Positions 3,442 through 34,585 of a DNA stretch of 34,585 nucleotides are shown one piece after another. Location of the stretch: IMG/VR virus record IMGVR_UViG_3300006033_000014, positions 1-34,585 of that record. One strand, given 5' to 3'. The position numbers were made by a program, and so were the translations under genes. The notes beneath the pieces were generated by a model. The model was not told where the DNA came from. It worked only from the letters and a program-made list of their open reading frames with translations, and made no database searches. This stretch comes from a virus. Positions within the stretch are counted from its first letter, which is position 1; each line of letters begins with the position of its first letter.

Positions 3442-4290
3442 ATGGCAACTTATCCAGGTGCAATCAAAACGTTTACCGCACAGGTCGACAATGTGGATGA
3501 CGCAGAGGCCGCAGATGTAAACGTGGTGTATGACGAGGTGACGGCAATCCAAACCGAATTGGGTACAAACCCTAAAGCTTCTGCCACTGACCTAAAGACC
3601 CGACTCGCGCACACGCTCAACGCATTGGGCTATCTGTCATTTGACACGCCGACCGAGTTGACAATAGCGTCAGGTAGTATCACGACTACACAAACCTTTC
3701 ACCGCGTCGATACCCAGGCGGACGCGTCAAGCGATGACCTAGACAATATCACTATTCCGGCAACGGGTGACAACCAATTCAGGCTATTACGAATTGAGGA
3801 CGATTCGCGCAATGTCAGAATACGGCACGGGTTCGGAAATATCTATTGCTTAGGCGGTCAGGCTATCACGCTGGATACAACCAACGACATCGCCGTAGTG
3901 ATGTACGATACATCGCAGTCGCATTGGATTGCCTACGGCGTAACGCAAGCGGGTTTACTCGGCGCTAATAACGCGTGGACGGGCACAAACACATTCACGG
4001 GCGCTATGGCGTTTCCGTATCTTGCCGTCATCGCAAACCTGACATTAGACGCCACACACTACACGATTGACGCGGTTGTGACGGGTGGATCAATCACCGT
4101 GACGTTACCATCTGCGGCAACGTGTACGGGTCGGGTATACAATATCCGCAAGTCTGACGCGTCTGTCTACACCGTAACCATCGCGGCGGCAGGTGGTGAA
4201 ACGATCAACGGCGACGCTACAAAGGTTATCTCTGCGCAATATGACGTGATAACTATCCAGTCAACGGGCGTAGTCTGGGCGATCCTATGA
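3442..4290 (+). CDS. Tail fibre-like structural protein
   Basis: A 282-aa protein with an AGGAG ribosome site upstream of the ATG. The N-terminus (residues 1-50) resembles the start of phage appendage proteins, with a repeated acidic/valine pattern (VDNVDDAEAADVN) followed by a possible coiled coil. The rest is rich in threonine, alanine, glycine and asparagine with alternating hydrophobic residues, including NNAWTGTNTFTG, a repeat type typical of fibre shafts. The C-terminal 80 residues look like a beta-structured tip. It lies between the hub gene and a second fibre-like gene, which it overlaps by 4 bases. It probably contributes to host recognition. The exact role is not known. Confidence 0.65.
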   Translation: MATYPGAIKTFTAQVDNVDDAEAADVNVVYDEVTAIQTELGTNPKASATDLKTRLAHTLNALGYLSFDTPTELTIASGSITTTQTFHRVDTQADASSDDLDNITIPATGDNQFRLLRIEDDSRNVRIRHGFGNIYCLGGQAITLDTTNDIAVVMYDTSQSHWIAYGVTQAGLLGANNAWTGTNTFTGAMAFPYLAVIANLTLDATHYTIDAVVTGGSITVTLPSAATCTGRVYNIRKSDASVYTVTIAAAGGETINGDATKVISAQYDVITIQSTGVVWAIL

Positions 4291-6844: not shown

Positions 6845-6906
6845 TAGTTACAAGATAGTTACAAACACTAAAACCTATTGCAACCCCTAACGATAGGGAG
6901 TATACT
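6845..6906 (+). promoter_or_regulatory. Early promoter P1 with operator-like sequence
   Basis: TTGCAA at 6878-6883 and TATACT at 6901-6906 are 17 bases apart, a near-consensus sigma-70 promoter. TAGTTACAAGAT (6845-6856) is followed by a second TAGTTACAA (6856-6864). Overlapping the -35 box is an imperfect inverted repeat, CTATTG (6875-6880) and CGATAG (6891-6896). The whole arrangement recurs at 7901-7962 with identical spacing, which supports regulation of both promoters by one factor. Confidence 0.8.
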
Positions 6907-6957
6907 GTATACATCGAGCGAGACAAAAGCAGTCAGACAGACAAGGGAGCGGCACAA

Positions 6958-7811: not shown

Positions 7812-7900
7812 CGCATAGATACGCGTAAAATCGCGCTACGTGGCTATTTATGGCGTTATACGCGATTGTATGATCATGCGATGATCTAATGGCGTGATGA

Positions 7901-7962
7901 TAGTTACAAGATTATTGCAATGTCTAAAATCTATTGTAACCCCCAACGATAGCGGTTATAAT
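7901..7962 (+). promoter_or_regulatory. Early promoter P2, duplicate of P1 module
   Basis: TTGTAA at 7934-7939 and TATAAT at 7957-7962 are 17 bases apart. TAGTTACAAGAT (7901-7912) sits exactly 30 bases before the CTATTG half-site, as in P1. The 22-base block 7931-7952 differs from its P1 counterpart 6875-6896 at only two positions. A separate short inverted repeat, GATCAT-gcg-ATGATC, lies upstream at 7872-7886. Confidence 0.82.
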
Positions 7963-7992
7963 AGATACATCTTAGAGACAGGGAGCGGCACA

Positions 7993-9335: not shown

Positions 9336-9622
9336 AACACGTTGCACGCACGGAAAAGATGTGCTCCGGCCAGTTGGCCGCCGCTGAAATGATGACCATG
9401 ACAAACACTGACGCAGTCGCGCTATTCGACCAGATCTATTCGACGCTTCCAGTCAACGAACAAATGCGCATGGATCGAAACATCAAGCGGCTTATGGGTA
9501 TCAAAAACATGGGCGTTGCATCGGCAAAAGAGATGCTCTTGAAAGTGGCGATTCACGAAACGATGGGAAGCCTAATCACGCCCCGCGAATTACTCAAGCG
9601 CACTTACGCGAGGCAGTCATGA
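9332..9622 (+). CDS. Small helical hypothetical protein
   Basis: A 96-aa protein coupled by ATGA to the gene before and by ATGA to the small membrane protein after. The sequence is methionine and lysine rich and appears all helical. The segment KRLMGIKNMGVASAKEMLLK around residues 48-67 could form a helix-hairpin-helix-like DNA contact (IKNMGVASAKE), but this is weak. Function is unknown. Confidence 0.65.
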   Translation: MKHVARTEKMCSGQLAAAEMMTMTNTDAVALFDQIYSTLPVNEQMRMDRNIKRLMGIKNMGVASAKEMLLKVAIHETMGSLITPRELLKRTYARQS

Positions 9623-9723
9623 GTAACGTAATCAGCGCACTGGCTGAAGGCGCGAAAATCCTACTCGTGACAATCGCGCTCTTGATGGTATTATGGTTCG
9701 TGCCTCTCGCTATGGGGTGGTAA
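9619..9723 (+). CDS. Very small single-pass membrane protein
   Basis: A 34-aa reading frame starting at the ATGA overlap with the previous stop and ending at TAA 9721-9723. After MSNVISALAEGAK it has one hydrophobic helix, ILLVTIALLMVLWFVPLAMG, long enough to cross a membrane. Translational coupling in a packed operon supports expression. The promoter of the first structured RNA begins at its stop codon. The function cannot be told from sequence; small membrane peptides of this sort can modulate host membrane proteins. Confidence 0.55.
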   Translation: MSNVISALAEGAKILLVTIALLMVLWFVPLAMGW

Positions 9724-9724
9724 G

Positions 9725-9733
9725 TGGTATAAT
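9725..9733 (+). promoter_or_regulatory. Extended -10 promoter of RNA element A
   Basis: TGG followed by TATAAT is a full extended -10 element, with no good -35 box 17 bases upstream. The predicted start at about 9740 coincides with the first base of the structured RNA that follows. The same TGGTATAATAT sequence stands in front of RNA element B. Confidence 0.75.
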
Positions 9734-9739
9734 ATAAGT

Positions 9740-9847
9740 GCCCGCCAGGCATAACGCACTATATAATCTAGAGTACCATTCTCAACCCTTACGCGCTATT
9801 GCGTTATCTCTGGCGGGATAACAACCACGTAAGGGTTGAGTTATTTT
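9740..9847 (+). ncRNA. Structured leader RNA element A (pseudoknot)
   Basis: Helix a joins 9741-9748 (CCCGCCAG) with 9810-9817 and 9751-9758 (ATAACGCA) with 9800-9807, separated by a 2x2 internal loop. Helix b joins 9781-9793 (CTCAACCCTTACG) with 9828-9840, 13 perfect pairs. The order a, b, a', b' is a pseudoknot. Helix b is followed by TTATTTTC, resembling an intrinsic terminator. Element B at 10978-11094 has the same layout with different bases but preserved pairing. It forms the leader of the primase gene. Possible roles are an attenuator, a protein-bound operator RNA, or a discrete small RNA of about 108 nt. Confidence 0.78.
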
Positions 9848-9860
9848 CAGGGATGGGCGT

Positions 9861-10928
9861 ATGATTCCAGAGCTTCACGAAAAACTAGTAGACCGAATAG
9901 GCGCAACCGTCAGACTGCGCAAGACCTCAGCGCATGAATGGGCTGGCCCGTGCCCGAAGTGTGGCGGTAAAGACCGCTTCCGCGTCAACGATGAACGCGG
10001 GTGGTTCTGCCGTCAGTGTTGCGGCGACCCTGCAAGCGGTGGGCATTGGGGCGACTATGCCGACTTTACCAAATTTGCGTTTGGATGGGAGCTACGCGAC
10101 ACGCTCAAAGCCATGGGGTTGAATCGGCATATTACCGCGCAGGAAATGCAGGCATTGGAGCAGGAACGCGCACGCAATGAAGCCCAACAACGCCGCGAGG
10201 AAGCTATCACGCAGTCCGAAGTGTGGGCATGCCTGACCCATGAAGCCGACTACCTGAAATATCATCGAATTATGAACGAGAGCGTTGAAGCGCTGGCGCT
10301 ATGGCAAGACCGGGGATTATCGTTTGACTGGCCTGATATGTTCATGTTGGGATATTGTCCGTCTAAAATCTGGAAGTCCGGCGATGAATATTTCGAGTGC
10401 GCAAGCCTGACCATTCCCTATCTTCGGGCGATCTATGACGAGATGAACGAAGTAATTGTCGAAACCCGTTGCATCGGACTCCGCCATAGATTGCTTATGG
10501 ATAATCCACCAGGGGGCAAGTACCGCCCGCACATGGCGGGCGCTGGCAATCACCTGTATTTCACGCAACCGCGACAATCGCGCATTGACGGAGGCGGACT
10601 GCTGATCGTTGAGGGCGAAATAAAAGCCATGGTAGTCGAGGCTAATCTGTGGACTGGAGGCATTGCGGGCGATAGTGAACCGATATTCCCTGAATTATCC
10701 GTTGTCGGCATCCCAGGAAAGAGCTACAAACCGGAATGGATACAGCAATTCCGTCAGGCGCGGCGTGTATGGATATGCCTAGACCCTGACGCACGAACTG
10801 AAGCAATGCGGTTACGGGAGCAGATAGGCAATATCGCGCACGTGATATTACTGCCCGAAAAGATTGACGACCTGCTGAATGCGGGTATCATCGACCAGCG
10901 AGAATTATTAGACCTATTTAGGAATTAG
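9861..10928 (+). CDS. Phage primase with zinc ribbon and Toprim domain
   Basis: A 355-aa DnaG-like primase expected to make RNA primers at the phage fork. A CHC2-type zinc ribbon uses Cys31, Cys34, Cys50 and Cys53 (CPKCGGKDRF and FCRQC). The Toprim domain starts near residue 245, with Glu251 in LLIVEGEIKAM and Asp308/Asp310 in ICLDPDA, the expected metal-binding acidic residues. It lacks a helicase domain; a DnaB-like helicase is encoded separately at 12397. The start has only a modest AGGGATG ribosome site, and the upstream 108-base pseudoknot RNA probably controls the level of this gene. The protein ends about 35 bases before the promoter of the second such RNA. Confidence 0.9.
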   Translation: MIPELHEKLVDRIGATVRLRKTSAHEWAGPCPKCGGKDRFRVNDERGWFCRQCCGDPASGGHWGDYADFTKFAFGWELRDTLKAMGLNRHITAQEMQALEQERARNEAQQRREEAITQSEVWACLTHEADYLKYHRIMNESVEALALWQDRGLSFDWPDMFMLGYCPSKIWKSGDEYFECASLTIPYLRAIYDEMNEVIVETRCIGLRHRLLMDNPPGGKYRPHMAGAGNHLYFTQPRQSRIDGGGLLIVEGEIKAMVVEANLWTGGIAGDSEPIFPELSVVGIPGKSYKPEWIQQFRQARRVWICLDPDARTEAMRLREQIGNIAHVILLPEKIDDLLNAGIIDQRELLDLFRN

Positions 10929-10962
10929 CCTCGTGTTGATTGTAGTAATGTCGCTGGCGATA

Positions 10963-10971
10963 TGGTATAAT
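10963..10971 (+). promoter_or_regulatory. Extended -10 promoter of RNA element B
   Basis: TGG plus TATAAT, with start predicted near 10978, the first base of helix a in element B. No convincing -35 box stands at 17 bases. It matches the element A promoter, including the bases just after the -10 box. Confidence 0.75.
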
Positions 10972-10977
10972 ATCAGT

Positions 10978-11094
10978 ACCTGCCAGGGACTGTTATCAAT
11001 ACGATTAGATTATACGAGGCAACCCCCTCAACCCCTATCGTATTGATGTATCCCTGGCAGGACACATTCAAAAATCGCAGGGGTTGAGTTATTT
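10978..11094 (+). ncRNA. Structured leader RNA element B (pseudoknot)
   Basis: Helix a joins 10979-10989 (CCTGCCAGGGA) with 11051-11061, and 10995-11005 (ATCAATACGAT) with 11037-11047. Helix b joins 11027-11036 (CTCAACCCCT) with 11079-11088. Helix b ends directly where helix a' begins, so the two could stack as in a classic H-type pseudoknot. The 3' end GTTGAGTTATTT is shared with element A. Compared with A, paired bases change together, which argues for a conserved RNA fold. It lies just upstream of a winged-helix replication gene. Confidence 0.78.
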
Positions 11095-11113
11095 AATCCA
11101 AAGGAGCGGAGCA

Positions 11114-11434
11114 GTGAAAATTAGTCAGGGTAGAAAGTTTCTAGTCCTTGATTACATGGTGCGCGAATACGGGCCGACACGCGCTATAGTCTACGCGTAC
11201 ATTGAGCGCGAATCATCTACTCCGGTTTCCGATTGGGCGTGTTGCGTGTCTGAAGAAACAATGGCCGCCGGGTGTGGCATATCAAAGCGTTCTCTTGACG
11301 CTCACCTTCAGGCGTTGATTGATGACGGGTACATTGTTGCAGTGCTGAAACGCCGACATGCACCATGTATTTATAAGCCGACACATAACGCGGACGTGAT
11401 GAACAGGAAGGCTATCTATAAGGACGGTGACTAA
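11114..11434 (+). CDS. Winged-helix DNA-binding protein, likely replication related
   Basis: A 106-aa protein. I chose GTG at 11114 because AAGGAG stands 7 bases upstream; a longer TTG reading would begin inside RNA element B. Residues about 45-80 (SEETMAAGCGISKRSLDAHLQALIDDGYI) form a helix-turn-helix with a wing-like tail, as in MarR/DnaD-like and replication initiator N-terminal domains. It is followed at once by the replisome organiser. It may bind the origin or regulate the replication operon; the sequence does not decide between these. Confidence 0.78.
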   Translation: MKISQGRKFLVLDYMVREYGPTRAIVYAYIERESSTPVSDWACCVSEETMAAGCGISKRSLDAHLQALIDDGYIVAVLKRRHAPCIYKPTHNADVMNRKAIYKDGD

Positions 11435-12381
11435 TGGCGAATCAACCGATGGCGTGGTATAAGGCGTATTCTGAAACCTGCAAGGATGACAAGATTCTTG
11501 CTATTGCTGACCAGTTGCAAATGACACGAAACGAGGTTCTAGGCGCGTGGACAAGCTTGTTATGCCTTGCCAATACTTCACCCGTGCGCGGTGCAATGTA
11601 TTTGACGGAACAATCACACTGTACGCAACACTTTTTGATGTTGCATGCGTGTTGCACGCAACAATTGATTGAAACGTTTGTGACAATGAACATGCTTGAG
11701 ATTGACGAAAATGGAGCCTATCGTATCAAAAATTGGGAGAAACGGCAGGCTAAAAAGGACAATAGTACTGAACGGTCACGAAGAAGCCGCGAAAAAGCCA
11801 AATTAGCGGCTCAAAAGGCTAAGGAAGACGCTCAAAAGGCTATTGATGCAACAAAAAACGTTGCATGCAACGGCGTTGCAACATCAGAAAACGTTGCATG
11901 CAACGGTATAGAGTTAGAGATAGATAAAGATAATAATAATACAGACGATTATCACGACGCTTTTTCAGAAACCCCGGCAGTGCAATCAACTTACAAACCA
12001 CCAGTCAATCAACCTGTAGGATCATTTGCTGAATGGAATAGCTACCCATCGTTACTGACGGATAGCCAACTGATGCAGATATGGTTTGAAGTAACCGGAA
12101 TGCCGAGTATCCCAACGAATAGGGGCAATGGGAGCGATTCAGTCAATATCGTGATGGGCGCACTACATGACCAATACCGCCTACATGGTAGTGGAACGGT
12201 GGAATACCTGAAACGCATGTATAGCGCGTGGCGGGCGCGTAATTATAAGGCATCTAATGCCGGGTGGTTGACGGAATGGGCGGTAACAGGCGATATACCC
12301 GCGCAAAGACAACAAGAAACCGCGCTGAACGGCAATAACAACGGCAAAAAGCAAAAGCTTATGCCAGAAGTATCGTGGTAG
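11434..12381 (+). CDS. Replisome organiser / replication initiator
   Basis: A 315-aa protein starting at TAATG with the preceding gene. Residues 1-100 resemble the winged-helix N-terminal domain of phage replisome organisers (MAWYKAYSETCKDDKILAIA, then NEVLGAWTSLLCLA). Residues 105-160 are a lysine/alanine linker encoded by repeated palindromic DNA. The C-terminal domain (about 200-290, with YLKRMYSAWRARNYKASN) resembles DnaD-like or helicase-loader domains. It probably binds the origin inside its own gene and brings in the downstream helicase, as lambda O and SPP1-type proteins do; that comparison is by analogy. Confidence 0.8.
   Translation: MANQPMAWYKAYSETCKDDKILAIADQLQMTRNEVLGAWTSLLCLANTSPVRGAMYLTEQSHCTQHFLMLHACCTQQLIETFVTMNMLEIDENGAYRIKNWEKRQAKKDNSTERSRRSREKAKLAAQKAKEDAQKAIDATKNVACNGVATSENVACNGIELEIDKDNNNTDDYHDAFSETPAVQSTYKPPVNQPVGSFAEWNSYPSLLTDSQLMQIWFEVTGMPSIPTNRGNGSDSVNIVMGALHDQYRLHGSGTVEYLKRMYSAWRARNYKASNAGWLTEWAVTGDIPAQRQQETALNGNNNGKKQKLMPEVSW
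11859..11950 (+). other. Candidate replication origin inside the initiator gene
   Basis: The perfect 14-bp palindrome CGTTGCATGCAACG occurs at 11859-11872 and 11892-11905, 33 bases apart, with a partial copy CGTTGCAAC at 11874-11882. A strongly AT-rich tract of GATA/AAT repeats follows to about 11942. More GTTGCA-type boxes lie upstream at 11629-11662. Iteron-like palindromes next to an AT-rich segment in the linker of an initiator gene match the lambdoid origin plan. Confidence 0.65.
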
Positions 12382-12396
12382 TCCCTGGGAGGGATC

Positions 12397-13383
12397 ATGG
12401 CAACAAACGAGATCAAGGCACAAACGTTATTTACCCCTGAGGAAATCGGCGTAATCGGGGCGCAACATATCCGCCACCGGCGCGAAAACAAACATTTATC
12501 CGTACCGTTGGGCGTGAAATCCGTTGATACGGTCGACGCGAAAGGCAATCAGTTATTGCCGTTGTTTTCGGGTGAAGTTATGTCAATCATCGGGCGGCCT
12601 GGTAACGGCAAATCTGGAGTTATGACGTTCTCGGCACGCACTAGGGCGGAGCAGTTATTATCGCTCAAATTGTTTGATAGGGTGGTTTTGTATGTGACGG
12701 TAGAACAGATGGTTGAAGAAATGTATGCGTTCAATCTGGCGGCTGATAGGCGCATATCGATTACCAATATGGCGCGGGGCGAGATCACAGACGCGGAATG
12801 GGCGGAATGCCTGAAACATTCGATTGAACGGCGAAACCTACCGCTATGGTATTCTGGATACTCCGCATATATCAACGGCACACAGAATACAATCAACATC
12901 GAGACTATCACGCGGGACGTTAAGACAATCCGAGACGTTCATCACAAGCAGATTGATATTATTTTCATCGACTACCTACAGCTATTACCCTATGCCGGGA
13001 ATGCCGAAAGCAAGACCGTTGGAATCTCCAACAATCTCGACATGATCAAGCGTCTGGCCTTGCAGGTCTGGAAGTGCCCAGTAGTGTTGGGCGTGCAGGC
13101 AAAGCGCGAGGTTGACGACTACCCGGACGAAATGCCGCGTCAGGAAGATGGGCAGTGGACAAGTAACATTGAGCAGGCATCAGATAAAATTCTATCCGTA
13201 GTCAGGCCGCGCAAGTATCGCAAAGAGGGGCAAGAGTTTTACGGTCAAACCGTGCAGGGTAACAACCAATTGGTATTGTCGGTGCTAAAGCAAAAACTAG
13301 GCGCGGCAAACTATGTAAAGTGGTTGTATTTCGACCCGATTTACAACAAGCTTGACGACCTAGAGATTGAGAAAACGCAATAA
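12397..13383 (+). CDS. DnaB-like replicative helicase (ATPase domain)
   Basis: A 328-aa RecA-fold ATPase of the DnaB type. Walker A is GRPGNGKS (66-73) and Walker B is IIFIDYLQLL (188-197), followed by GVQAKREVD and a late REDGQWTSNIEQASD-like region corresponding to the nucleotide- and DNA-sensing motifs. At 328 residues it is shorter than host DnaB (about 450-470) and lacks most of the N-terminal collar domain, which is usual for some phage helicases. It has a strong GGGAGG ribosome site and follows the replisome organiser, which probably loads it. It should unwind the fork with the primase encoded at 9861. Confidence 0.9.
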   Translation: MATNEIKAQTLFTPEEIGVIGAQHIRHRRENKHLSVPLGVKSVDTVDAKGNQLLPLFSGEVMSIIGRPGNGKSGVMTFSARTRAEQLLSLKLFDRVVLYVTVEQMVEEMYAFNLAADRRISITNMARGEITDAEWAECLKHSIERRNLPLWYSGYSAYINGTQNTINIETITRDVKTIRDVHHKQIDIIFIDYLQLLPYAGNAESKTVGISNNLDMIKRLALQVWKCPVVLGVQAKREVDDYPDEMPRQEDGQWTSNIEQASDKILSVVRPRKYRKEGQEFYGQTVQGNNQLVLSVLKQKLGAANYVKWLYFDPIYNKLDDLEIEKTQ

Positions 13384-20178: not shown

Positions 20179-20625
20179 ATGAGCACGTTTGGTGGTCGAA
20201 AAATGGTAGCGTGTCCGTTCTGTGACAATATATACGACAGCAACGATGAACACATATGTCAAAACCAATATGAGGCGGCGACGTATGTCACGCCTTCGCT
20301 GTCAACTAAACCGGTAGGCACGGATGGCATATTTGTTAGATTTGACGAAGAAATAGAAAAGCTCCGCGATCGCGCAGAAGTCGCAGAAGCCAGGCTTTCT
20401 CTTACCGAAAAAGGAGCTGCGGTCATCCTTAGGAGGGCTGAGAAATTGCAATCTTTACTAGAAATTACACTTTCTGGCATCCCTTTGTGCGATGGTGGCA
20501 ATTGTCCAATTTGCGGCGAGCATGTGCTTTCTCCTTTTGGCGGAGAAATGCCCCATGCGCCAAATTGCATTCTCGTTACCGCCAGAACCGCGCTGGATGA
20601 GCTAAAACGGGAAACTTCAAAATGA
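20179..20625 (+). CDS. ISL3 cargo protein 2, double zinc-knuckle and coiled coil
   Basis: A 148-aa protein with a strong AAGGAGG site. The N-terminus has CPFCDNIYDSNDEHIC, a C-x2-C ... H-x2-C finger. The middle (about 50-100) is a coiled coil. The C-terminus has CPICGEH followed by PHAPNC, a second finger of a type often seen in small phage proteins. Its form suggests that the element acquired cargo from a phage genome. Function is unknown. Confidence 0.7.
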   Translation: MSTFGGRKMVACPFCDNIYDSNDEHICQNQYEAATYVTPSLSTKPVGTDGIFVRFDEEIEKLRDRAEVAEARLSLTEKGAAVILRRAEKLQSLLEITLSGIPLCDGGNCPICGEHVLSPFGGEMPHAPNCILVTARTALDELKRETSK

Positions 20626-20822
20626 AAACGCTCTATTTTCTCGGAGAGGCCGGAGGGGCGAGGGTAAGACCAACCTCTATTGGGAACAAAAACATGTGGA
20701 CCAACTGGTATTTGAGCCACGGAATGCGCGAAGTATCGAAAGAAGAATATGATGCCGCCAAGAAACAATACAGGGATACTGAGCATGTGACCACGGAGGC
20801 TCCGAATGCTACCGAAGAATGA
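20622..20822 (+). CDS. ISL3 cargo protein 3, unknown
   Basis: A 66-aa protein coupled by ATGA to the preceding cargo gene. It contains NMWTNWYLSHGMREVSKEEY, a segment that reads like a small phage accessory protein. The last 15 residues are acidic. The end overlaps the start of the ribbon-helix-helix gene by 17 bases. No family function is known to me. Confidence 0.6.
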   Translation: MKTLYFLGEAGGARVRPTSIGNKNMWTNWYLSHGMREVSKEEYDAAKKQYRDTEHVTTEAPNATEE

Positions 20823-20991
20823 CCACCCAAAGCGCGGTAGACCGCCCAAGCAGGGCAGCAAGATGGTGCAGACCGGATTGTGGCTGTACGAAAACCAAAT
20901 CCAGTGGATCAAAGAAGAAGCTGCACGGTTAGGGATAACCGCCAGCGAACTATTACGAATCCTGATCGATAAAGCAATGAAGGATAAATGA
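20806..20991 (+). CDS. Ribbon-helix-helix protein with AT-hook-like N-terminus (ISL3 cargo)
   Basis: A 61-aa protein with GGAGG upstream. Residues 8-15 (PKRGRPPK) resemble an AT-hook, binding the minor groove of AT-rich DNA. Residues 21-58 (VQTGLWLYENQIQWIKEEAA, then GITASELLRILIDKAM) fit a ribbon-helix-helix DNA-binding fold. It is coupled to the transposase by ATGA. Its likely target is the AT-rich palindrome in the element's promoter, giving autoregulation of transposition; this is inference from arrangement. Confidence 0.75.
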   Translation: MLPKNDHPKRGRPPKQGSKMVQTGLWLYENQIQWIKEEAARLGITASELLRILIDKAMKDK

Positions 20992-22316
20992 CCGATCTTC
21001 TCAATCTTCCTTACTGGAACGTTCTGAAAGTTCAGGAAACCGACCTGAACTATGTCATCGATGCTACTTACGAGGTCGAGCCTGCTGGCTGCCCTCACTG
21101 CGGGTTCATGATCCGCTACGGACACGGCACGAAGGAAAAGCTCTTTATGGATACTCCCATCCACGGCAAGCGGGTAGGTATCCGGGCGATTCGCAACCGG
21201 TACAAGTGCCAGAACTGCGGGAAAACCTACATCCAGCCACTCCCCGATATAAACGAAGACCACTTTATGACAAAGCGCCTGGTCAGCTACATCGAACGGG
21301 AGGTTTTCAAGCGCACCTTTACGGCGATGGCTGCTGAAATCGGAGTGGATGAAAAGACAATCCGTAACGTTTTCAATGAGTACGTGGAGCGCGAGGAAAA
21401 GAAGCGGGTTATCCTGGCTCCTTACTGGCTGGGCATCGATGAACTGAAGATCGCCGGTGGGTATCGTGGCGTGTTCAGTAACGTCAAGGATCGCTGCATT
21501 CTCGATCTCATTCCAAACAGGAAGAAGGTGGAGGTGGTGAAGTTCTTCAAGAAGCTGCCTGAAAAGGACCGCGTGCAGCTCGTCTGCATGGATATGTGGA
21601 CGCCTTACAAAGAGATTGTGAATGAGTATCTTCCAAAGGCCCAAGTCGTGGTGGATAAGTTCCACTTCATAAGGATGGCGAGTGATGCACTGGAAGCTGT
21701 TCGGAAGGATGTTCGAGCTGAACTCACTGATCGCCAGCGCCGCCAGCTCATGCACGACCGTTTCATTCTTCTCAGAAGGAAAAGAGACCTGGAAGCGAAA
21801 GATCTGATCTTGTTGGATTCCTGGCTTGGTTCCTTCCCCCTTCTCAAAGAGACTTACGAACGCAAAGAGGAACTGTACGATATTTGGGAACTCAAAGACC
21901 GGAAAGAGGCCGAAAAGCAATATGCCGATTGGCAAACCAAAATCCCCGCTGATGGGCTGTTTGCCTTCCGGCCTCTTTTGACCGCAATGCAGAACTGGCG
22001 GAATGAGATTTTCGCTTATTTCGACCACCAGGCCACCAATGCCTACACCGAATCCCTTAACGGCCTGATGAAGCTGGCTAACCGCATGGGCCGGGGTTAC
22101 TCGTTCGAGGTCATCCGGGCGCGCATTCTGTATGCGCCGGAGAACGCAAAAACCACCACCCTCCGCCGTGGGATTCTCAGAGACCAGCAGGCCTACTACA
22201 TGTTTCCACCCGCAAGGCCACGCCCTGATTACTTCAGCGGTGTGAAGATTTCCACATTGGTGAGTGCAATTCGGAATGATCATTTCCTACCTATTTCCAC
22301 ACGTTATTCCGAATAG
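20988..22316 (+). CDS. tnpA: ISL3-family transposase
   Basis: A 442-aa DDE transposase, full length for the family (about 400-450). The zinc-finger region is Cys35/Cys38 and Cys74/Cys77 (GCPHCG and CQNCGK). A helix-turn-helix with AAEIGVDEKTIRNVFNEY is at 114-131. Catalytic acids are Asp151 in GIDELKI, Asp202 in VCMDMWTPY and Glu355 in NAYTESLNGL. It carries out cut-and-paste movement of the element with 8-bp duplications. The frame is intact, so it may be active. Its stop is 2 bases from the element end. Codon choice (AAG, GAA, CTG, CTC) differs from the surrounding phage genes. Confidence 0.95.
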   Translation: MTDLLNLPYWNVLKVQETDLNYVIDATYEVEPAGCPHCGFMIRYGHGTKEKLFMDTPIHGKRVGIRAIRNRYKCQNCGKTYIQPLPDINEDHFMTKRLVSYIEREVFKRTFTAMAAEIGVDEKTIRNVFNEYVEREEKKRVILAPYWLGIDELKIAGGYRGVFSNVKDRCILDLIPNRKKVEVVKFFKKLPEKDRVQLVCMDMWTPYKEIVNEYLPKAQVVVDKFHFIRMASDALEAVRKDVRAELTDRQRRQLMHDRFILLRRKRDLEAKDLILLDSWLGSFPLLKETYERKEELYDIWELKDRKEAEKQYADWQTKIPADGLFAFRPLLTAMQNWRNEIFAYFDHQATNAYTESLNGLMKLANRMGRGYSFEVIRARILYAPENAKTTTLRRGILRDQQAYYMFPPARPRPDYFSGVKISTLVSAIRNDHFLPISTRYSE

Positions 22317-22318
22317 CC
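22295..22318 (-). repeat. ISL3 right terminal inverted repeat
   Basis: Read on the minus strand it starts GGCTATTCGG and continues to match the left end at 17 of 24 bases. It includes the transposase stop codon. Confidence 0.85.
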
Positions 22319-22326
22319 CTAAAAAC
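22319..22326. repeat. 8-bp target-site duplication, right
   Basis: CTAAAAAC, identical to 19684-19691. The following AGT TAG would complete the interrupted reading frame of the small membrane protein. Confidence 0.92.
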
Positions 22327-23353: not shown

Positions 23354-23372
23354 TTGACACCTATGTTATAAT
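23354..23372 (+). promoter_or_regulatory. Late promoter with TTGACA-N7-TATAAT layout
   Basis: TTGACA (23354-23359) and TATAAT (23367-23372) are only 7 bases apart, too close for a normal sigma-70 -35/-10 pair. TGT before the -10 makes it an extended -10 promoter. The motif GTTGACAMCTATGWTATAMT also occurs at 28479-28498 before the capsid gene. The conserved upstream TTGACA may be a binding site of a phage activator. It precedes the holin and terminase genes. Confidence 0.75.
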
Positions 23373-23468: not shown

Positions 23469-23732
23469 ATGGACTTAGCAATTGGCGGTATATCGGCACT
23501 GGCTCTCGTAGTTGGACTAGTGCAAGCGGCAAAAGAGCAATTCGGTATCAGCGGGCGCGGGGCTTTCATCCTTGCACTCGTGTTAGGCCTGGTCATCTCG
23601 CTTGCCTATCAGGTCGGCGTAATGTTCCCATCATTCGCGCCATGGATTCAACAGGTGGTGATTGGTCTCGTGATTGGTATGGCGGCAACGGGTTGGTATG
23701 ACCTGGGGAGCAAATGGACGCGCAAACCATAA
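23469..23732 (+). CDS. Holin-like membrane protein
   Basis: An 87-aa protein with AGGAG upstream. It has three hydrophobic segments: about 5-20 (GGISALALVVGLVQA), 30-50 (RGAFILALVLGLVISLAY) and 62-78 (QVVIGLVIGMAATGWY), with a short polar tail ending KWTRKP. Size, helix number and charged C-terminus fit a class I holin, which would form membrane holes and release the GH25 endolysin. It is first in the late operon while the endolysin is last, about 17 kb apart. The function is inferred from membrane pattern and position. Confidence 0.7.
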   Translation: MDLAIGGISALALVVGLVQAAKEQFGISGRGAFILALVLGLVISLAYQVGVMFPSFAPWIQQVVIGLVIGMAATGWYDLGSKWTRKP

Positions 23733-34362: not shown

Positions 34363-34538
34363 TCGCATGGGCAGAGGCCAACGGCAAGCCGCCATTGTGG
34401 GTGAACGAGTTGCAGGCCGCCGAGGAATGGGGCGTACCGCCATGGGTTGTACATCAAGGCCCTGCAATATGGTTCAACCGCTGGCGGCGATTCGCGGTAT
34501 ACCGTGAAAGGAGAATGAAACATGACCGAAAAGGTTGA
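34120..34538 (+). CDS. Tail assembly chaperone, -1 frameshift product (G-T type)
   Basis: Reading 34120-34323 and then shifting back one base continues from 34323 to the stop at 34536-34538, giving 139 aa: 68 shared residues plus 71 new ones beginning IRVEVSGGDL. The second part (WVNELQAAEEWGVPPWVVHQ) resembles the T-domain of many siphovirus chaperones. It overlaps the tape-measure start at 34522, as in lambda. The chaperone binds the tape measure until the tube is built. Confidence 0.85.
34317..34323 (+). other. Programmed -1 frameshift site T TTT TTA
   Basis: In the zero frame the codons are GAT TTT TTA, so the heptamer T TTT TTA has the X XXY YYZ form. An AAGGA-like sequence stands just upstream and may pause the ribosome. 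Confidence 0.88.
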
Positions 34539-34585
34539 GATCGACATTGTAGCCAGAGACAAGGCAAGCGGTACGATAAAAAAAG
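34486..34585. repeat. Terminal 100-bp direct repeat, right copy
   Basis: Identical to 1-100. It contains the end of the chaperone T-frame and the first bases of a second copy of the tape-measure start (ATG at 34522, cut by the window end). It represents the same genome position as the left copy. Confidence 0.95.

Follow-up and report, generated by a model that had tools for sequence, protein, structure and literature searches.

Several described systems resemble the leaders reported here. In type III toxin-antitoxin and AbiF loci, a promoter is likewise followed by a pseudoknotted or otherwise structured RNA, a Rho-independent terminator and a protein gene, and the terminator throttles this gene (PMC5086642; PMC12373285). 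Phage P4 controls its replication genes by a trans-acting RNA, the CI RNA, and shares with A and B an RNA leader before primase-type replication genes, complementary segments and, as predicted for A and B, premature termination (PMC4825925). The T4 gene 32 operator is a further example of a phage replication gene whose leader contains a pseudoknot (PMC535899). Attenuators and the expression platforms of riboswitches have competing helices and a U-tract terminator directly before the gene.

Two leaders, designated A and B, were studied in a stretch of phage DNA of 34,585 nt, hereafter called the window. They are proposed, with moderate confidence, to represent an undescribed class of structured phage 5' leaders, most likely acting as a cis-acting OFF switch.

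Organization of the phage genome and of the two leaders

The window carries a 100-bp direct repeat at both ends (1-100 and 34486-34585); this terminal repeat indicates that the record is probably a complete genome of ~34.5 kb, circularly closed or permuted. The genome has a G+C content of 52% and encodes terminase, portal, capsid, tape-measure protein, lysin, Erf and a replication block. No close relatives of it were found in the collections searched. Close protein homologues of the primase or DnaB were absent from the viral contigs, as were those of the primase from the genomes and phages searched. Because the ISL3 transposase is shared with Pelolinea, the host probably belongs to the Anaerolineae (Chloroflexota), as judged from this single mobile gene. 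The Pelolinea contig in question (G001:C16) is circular, and each of its ends holds part of the ISL3 transposase gene. The ISL3 cassette (20623-22319) has 91-94% DNA identity with this contig, the rest of which is unrelated in DNA; nothing but the cassette is in common with the phage, and the contig contains no leader of the A/B kind.

Element A was placed at 9725-9847 and B at 10963-11094, and the positions and sequences first described for both, together with every pairing, were verified (Table 1). In each element, the promoter is followed by helix a, the 5' strand of helix b, a', b', a U-rich tail and the gene. The order a-b-a'-b', as read from the letters, was confirmed in both as the predicted topology of a pseudoknot. 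The transcription start, which we take from the -10 boxes to be G9740 in A and A10978 in B, would lie 1 base 5' of helix a. On inspection upstream of the -10 box, no good -35 box was found for the A promoter. The 3' strand of helix a in A can alternatively form a hairpin of its own, GTTATCTC-TGGC-GGGATAAC, inside helix b.

Table 1. Positions of the leader elements and of selected genes in the window
Feature	Position	Strand	Sequence or remark
A, extended -10 promoter	9725-9733	+	TGGTATAAT
A, helix a 5' strand	9741-9758	+	a1 CCCGCCAG, 9741-9748; a2 ATAACGCA, 9751-9758
A, helix b 5' strand	9781-9793	+	CTCAACCCTTACG; within the loop of hairpin a
A, helix a 3' strand	9800-9817	+	a2' TGCGTTAT, 9800-9807; a1' CTGGCGGG, 9810-9817
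A, helix b 3' strand	9828-9840	+	CGTAAGGGTTGAG; 13 bp with CTCAACCCTTACG
A, U-rich tail	9841-9847	+	TTATTTT; intrinsic-terminator-like; 5' of AGGGA ribosome-binding site and ATG 9861
Primase-like gene, 3' of A	9861-10928	+	Zn_Ribbon_Prim; PHROG DNA primase
B, extended -10 promoter	10963-10971	+	TGGTATAAT, identical to that of A
B, helix a 5' strand	10979-11005	+	a1 CCTGCCAGGGA, 10979-10989; a2 ATCAATACGAT, 10995-11005
B, helix b 5' strand	11027-11036	+	CTCAACCCCT
B, helix a 3' strand	11037-11061	+	a2', 11037-11047; a1', 11051-11061
B, helix b 3' strand	11079-11088	+	AGGGGTTGAG; partner of CTCAACCCCT
B, U-rich tail	11089-11094	+	TTATTT; 5' of AAGGAG ribosome-binding site (11101-11106) and GTG 11114
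Winged-helix replication-initiator-like gene, 3' of B	11114-11434	+	HTH_36 below Pfam cut-off; PHROG replication initiation, weak
Replisome organiser	11434-12381		replication block
DnaB-like helicase	12397-13383		replication block
ISL3 transposase	20988-22316		97% protein identity to a copy on a 36.5-kb Pelolinea MAG contig

The leaders occupy gaps of 137 nt (A) and 185 nt (B) before the primase-like and winged-helix genes in a block that is otherwise tightly packed. That A precedes a primase gene and B a winged-helix replication-type gene, as had been proposed, was supported by Pfam and PHROG matches, which are weak for the winged-helix gene. Small frames of 33-35 codons adjoin the leader in three phages (window 9619-9723, L066 2502-2602 and L065 2858-2965); two of them are membrane-like and one is basic. 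Elsewhere in the window, a promoter at 23367 (TGTTATAAT), a 17-bp hairpin (GCGCCGTTGCGTTTCCT/GGGAGGCGTAGCGGCGC), a U-rich tail and a ribosome-binding site precede a gene at 23469. This simple attenuator-like leader indicates that A and B are not the only promoter-terminator-gene units of this phage. A repeated promoter- or operator-like sequence, GATAGTTACAA...CTATTG.AACCCC.AACGATAG, was observed in the intergenic segments 6850-6910 and 7900-7963.

Pairing and folding of A and B

The two elements have in common the promoter, a CCYGCCAGG word, the core CTCAACCC and GGGTTGAGTTATTT. Their a2 arms are unrelated to each other and perfectly paired inside each copy, and a clean compensatory exchange was found at one a1 pair and one b pair. 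The claim that both partners change wherever the copies differ was therefore upheld for these two pairs and for all of a2, but it did not hold for the extra b pairs of A (TACG/CGTA), which have no full counterpart in B. With the b core kept, the loop of A can pair with b' of B and vice versa (-15.1 and -13.2 kcal/mol).

The rarity of such pairings was assessed by a genome-wide pseudoknot scan and 60 dinucleotide shuffles, with one of the two a-segments counted in the summed helix length. This length was 21 in the elements, in comparison with a maximum of 20 in the 60 shuffles, and the genome-wide scan found no other pseudoknots of the length of A and B. The MFE z-scores against shuffles were -4.5 and -4.8 for the two elements. 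When only nested folding was considered, A preferred the b state (-42.4 vs -33.4 kcal/mol for the a state), helix a giving way to helix b and the inner hairpin once b' was made. In B, the a state was preferred (-48.9 vs -34.2 kcal/mol for the b state); helix a persisted, and helix b was possible solely as a pseudoknot. The usual pseudoknot penalty is 7-10 kcal/mol. By a rough estimate that assumes this penalty, the pseudoknot of A would be about level with its b state and that of B slightly below its a state.

A search of Rfam 15, in which the window was run at gathering scores and the segment 9700-11120 up to E 10, gave no match, in agreement with the original prediction that the arrangement may be undescribed. 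The families searched included the C4 antisense RNA, HEARO, group I intron, HDV-like and abiF motif models, none of which matched A or B. HDV-like, group I and hammerhead readings were rejected, since the elements matched nothing in Rfam; an HDV-like reading is further weakened by helix a, which greatly exceeds HDV P1 in length. No description of such leaders was found among the titles listed in searches of the open-licence literature.

Elements of the same architecture in other phages

A covariance model of A and B, originally suggested as the means of finding homologues, did not find any: A and B were its sole matches in 396 Anaerolineae genomes and ~480 kb of relatives, and covariance searches yielded no real match in these genomes. 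DNA patterns of the conserved arms yielded chance matches only. It follows that homology has to be sought in architecture and position and not in sequence. The primase was aligned with distant prophage primases, and a profile scan led to viral contigs encoding primases of 23-44% identity; among the relatives of this phage, the identity was 26-44%.

Ten additional elements with this architecture and of unrelated sequence were found in six more phage records (two in G397, three in G398, one in G399, two in G400 and one each in G401 and L105); these relatives are metagenomic contigs, and for several of them the promoter and the U tract had served in the selection. The closest primase relative is that of G397/L065 (44%), where an element lies just upstream and a frame of ~35 codons separates it from the primase gene. 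This element has a -35/-10 promoter, a1 GTTGGCAG/CTGCCAAC, a2 GCGTGAGT/ACTCACGC and b GAAAAAACTGTTTTCG/CGAAAGCAGTTTTTTT, followed by ATTTAACGAGGTGGTTATG; its topology is as in A, and its sequence is different. G397_1, G400_1 and L105 have in common the word GCGTTGGCAGCGC, which was found together with a promoter nowhere else in the viral contigs. The capsids of G398 and G399 (43-47%) and the portal of G398 (44%) are related to those of the window, which indicates a group of related phages. A search of G402, G403 and four cultured phages whose genes are weakly related revealed no such element, so the class appears restricted as far as tested. A pattern match in L106 and a model match in L127 were dropped because they lacked the architecture; the latter appears to lie inside a coding frame. 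An Rfam search of the relatives gave only spurious miRNA matches at the elements.

For statistical support, 1.95 Mb were scanned on both strands for a -10 box, a helix a within 70 nt, a crossing helix b and a U-rich end. The counted elements scored 53-83.5, whereas this sequence, shuffled threefold, gave no score above 49; the remaining real matches (45 and below) were at the shuffle level and were excluded from the count, and L105 was counted from a separate pattern finding and a first, stricter scan (score 67.5). Some of the relatives were scanned with the U tract as a criterion, which did not apply to A and B or to the unfiltered scan. In the latter, from which the promoter and U criteria were omitted, the pseudoknots that ranked above every shuffle numbered eight, and these elements made up six of them. 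The other two (L112 3483-3651 and L114 16455-16666) lack both promoter and U tail and were left out of the count. A -35 box (at most one mismatch, spacer 16-18), never a search criterion, was present in 6 of the 11 elements with a scanned -10 box vs 10.8% of background -10 sites; the twelfth element, G398_3, has TTGACA-17-TACAAT. In all 12 elements, b' ends 0-25 nt 5' of a start codon.

Three relatives ahead of nuclease-like genes could be aligned, and the alignment was made by sequence only. Helices a and c contained 6 pairs with both sides changed, a number reached by 2 of 500 shuffles in a test that comprises only three sequences and whose shuffles ignore relatedness. In this alignment, 90.5% of cells were paired vs 38-53% when it was slid. 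A covariance model of these three relatives recovered a fourth element, that of G399 (L112), with an E of 0.016. The original prediction depended on the existence of homologues with compensatory changes, and the architecture-level relatives do show such changes.

A primase gene lies downstream of A, of G397_1 (after the small frame) and of L105, and a gene for a winged-helix replication-type protein downstream of B and G401. By Pfam, an HNH gene follows G398_2, G399 and G400_2, and, by inspection and with less certainty, a nuclease-like gene follows G397_2, G398_1 and G400_1. Downstream of G398_3 are a 33-aa frame, an HNH-like gene and a primase gene. The Pfam matches downstream of the relatives were HNH, DUF1064 and MarR-like. 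Thus, about half of the downstream genes belong to replication and about half are nuclease-like, mostly HNH, which indicates that the RNA is not specific to replication.

Other observations were made during this search. Iteron-like arrays, in which short direct repeats face inverted copies (e.g., TGTAACGGA / TCCGTTACA in L047) and very long hairpins are possible, precede the primase genes of the Anaerolineae prophages L041, L042, L047, L048, L049, L052, L058, L062 and L064; they are perhaps replication origins. The related phage contig L073 contains two type II hammerhead ribozymes (RF02276; 4488-4551 and 5780-5844) and, at ~4075-4105 and 3' of a TGGTATAAT promoter, a hammerhead-like core (CTGATGAG...GCGAAAC) without an Rfam match.

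Proposed function of the leaders

A promoter, a 5' helix and a U tract at the end of helix b, close to the start codon, are the constant features, and together they have the anatomy of a conditional terminator. Transcription from the A and B promoters, termination and gene control are predicted here from the sequence. Helix a, starting at about +2, would form first, and helix b would form next, its 5' strand being drawn from the loop of hairpin a. Helix b, the b' strand of which runs into the U tract before the start codon, would then act as a conditional intrinsic terminator or, where b' holds a Shine-Dalgarno sequence, would hide the start site. The helix-a domain would decide the availability of the b 5' strand, and the leader would thereby set the share of transcripts reaching the downstream gene.

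In G397_2, G398_1, G398_2 and, roughly, G399, an upstream segment (c) resembles b' and pairs with the b 5' strand, which suggests competition between an antiterminator and the terminator. A likely Shine-Dalgarno sequence lies within b' in G397_2, G398_1 and G398_2, and helix b would also block translation there. Against a switch in A and B speaks the absence from both of such an upstream alternative partner of b. Against a terminator, the U tracts of A and B are interrupted, that of B being weak, and the loops of helix b (34 nt in A and 42 nt in B) are long for an intrinsic terminator. The covariance searches of the 396 Anaerolineae genomes, from which no real match emerged, also count against the proposed class.

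The strongest alternative to the cis-acting OFF switch is a trans-acting RNA. A and B would then be self-contained genes for a stable small RNA of ~105-120 nt that serves immunity or copy control, and loop strand b would pair in trans with b' of the second copy or of a superinfecting relative, following the logic of the P4 CI RNA or of plasmid antisense RNAs. We regard this as unlikely, even though it would explain why the structure is kept when the self-complementary strands have nothing in common from one relative to another, a pattern expected of RNAs that recognize themselves. Systems of RNA-based incompatibility or immunity typically combine a constant scaffold with hypervariable, self-complementary loops. 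The ability of the A and B loops to cross-pair through the kept b core and the position of an element before the primase gene, as in P4, are also consistent with a small RNA, as is the fact that b in some of the relatives with segment c is complementary to an upstream and a downstream copy in the manner of P4 seqA-seqB-seqC (PMC4825925). However, an upstream copy is absent from A and B, and where a relative carries two or three elements, their b strands are mostly different, so that cross-talk is not general; a separate transcript and a processing site are hypothetical. In a broader form, which we hold equally doubtful, the elements may be a hypervariable phage RNA defined by topology alone, a promoter-pseudoknot-terminator cassette present in one to three copies per genome before replication and nuclease genes, whose self-complementary strands diversify because related phages use them for RNA self-recognition in immunity or copy control.

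A translational operator and DNA operators fit less well than a trans-acting RNA. In the former, a pseudoknot by the start site would allow a phage protein, e.g., the primase or initiator, to repress its own synthesis in the style of T4 gene 32. The pseudoknot leader before replication genes, the short distance from b' to the start codon and the Shine-Dalgarno sequences in b' of three relatives would suit such repression, but the downstream genes are unrelated (primase, winged helix, HNH and PDDEXK-like). This diversity makes it unlikely that the downstream gene encodes a common ligand or that its product is the one common binding protein. Moreover, the U-rich end of b' would be left unexplained, and the ribosome-binding sites of A and B lie outside helix b; an operator is accordingly considered rather improbable. 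Very little probability is given to DNA operators or origin repeats whose arms are protein-binding sites and whose RNA fold is incidental. The direct and inverted iteron arrays before the primase genes of other Anaerolineae prophages favor them, but in A and B no word is repeated between a and b, and the a2 arms are perfectly paired in spite of being unrelated between the copies. The iteron reading of A and B was rejected because of this lack of shared words, because the polarity from promoter through pseudoknot and U tract to gene is fixed in 12 of 12 elements, and because no operator sequence is common to the relatives.

If the leaders act as the proposed cis-acting OFF switch, A and B are concrete candidates for pseudoknot-based transcription termination. 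They suggest that phages of a bacterial group that has been little studied, probably the Anaerolineae, place their replication and mobile-nuclease genes under a layer of RNA control. Structured RNAs are normally found with sequence-guided covariance models; here, the architecture is kept and the sequence is unrecognisable before a primase of 44% identity, so that standard RNA-family searches miss the class.

Comparison with known systems

Type III toxin-antitoxin and AbiF loci contain tandem RNA repeats, whereas a repeat search revealed none in the leader region of A and B, where the predicted terminator is itself part of the pseudoknot, as one of its helices. According to Pfam, the genes downstream of A, B and the relatives are replication or HNH genes and not ToxN/TenpN/CptN or Abi_2. 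The P4 RNA acts, after processing, as an antisense RNA on two targets, whereas A and B are pseudoknotted, have no upstream copy and match no Rfam family. The pseudoknot of T4 gene 32 is ~28 nt long, lies at the 5' end and is accompanied by UUAAA repeats, whereas the class described here has helices of 10-25 bp, a U-tract end and unrelated downstream genes. The arrangement of an attenuator, in which a putative promoter is followed by a stem, a U-rich tract and a gene, was found in A, B and the 10 relatives. A and B differ from attenuators and riboswitches in having no known aptamer or leader peptide and in that the 5' strand of the predicted terminator is located in the loop of an upstream helix.
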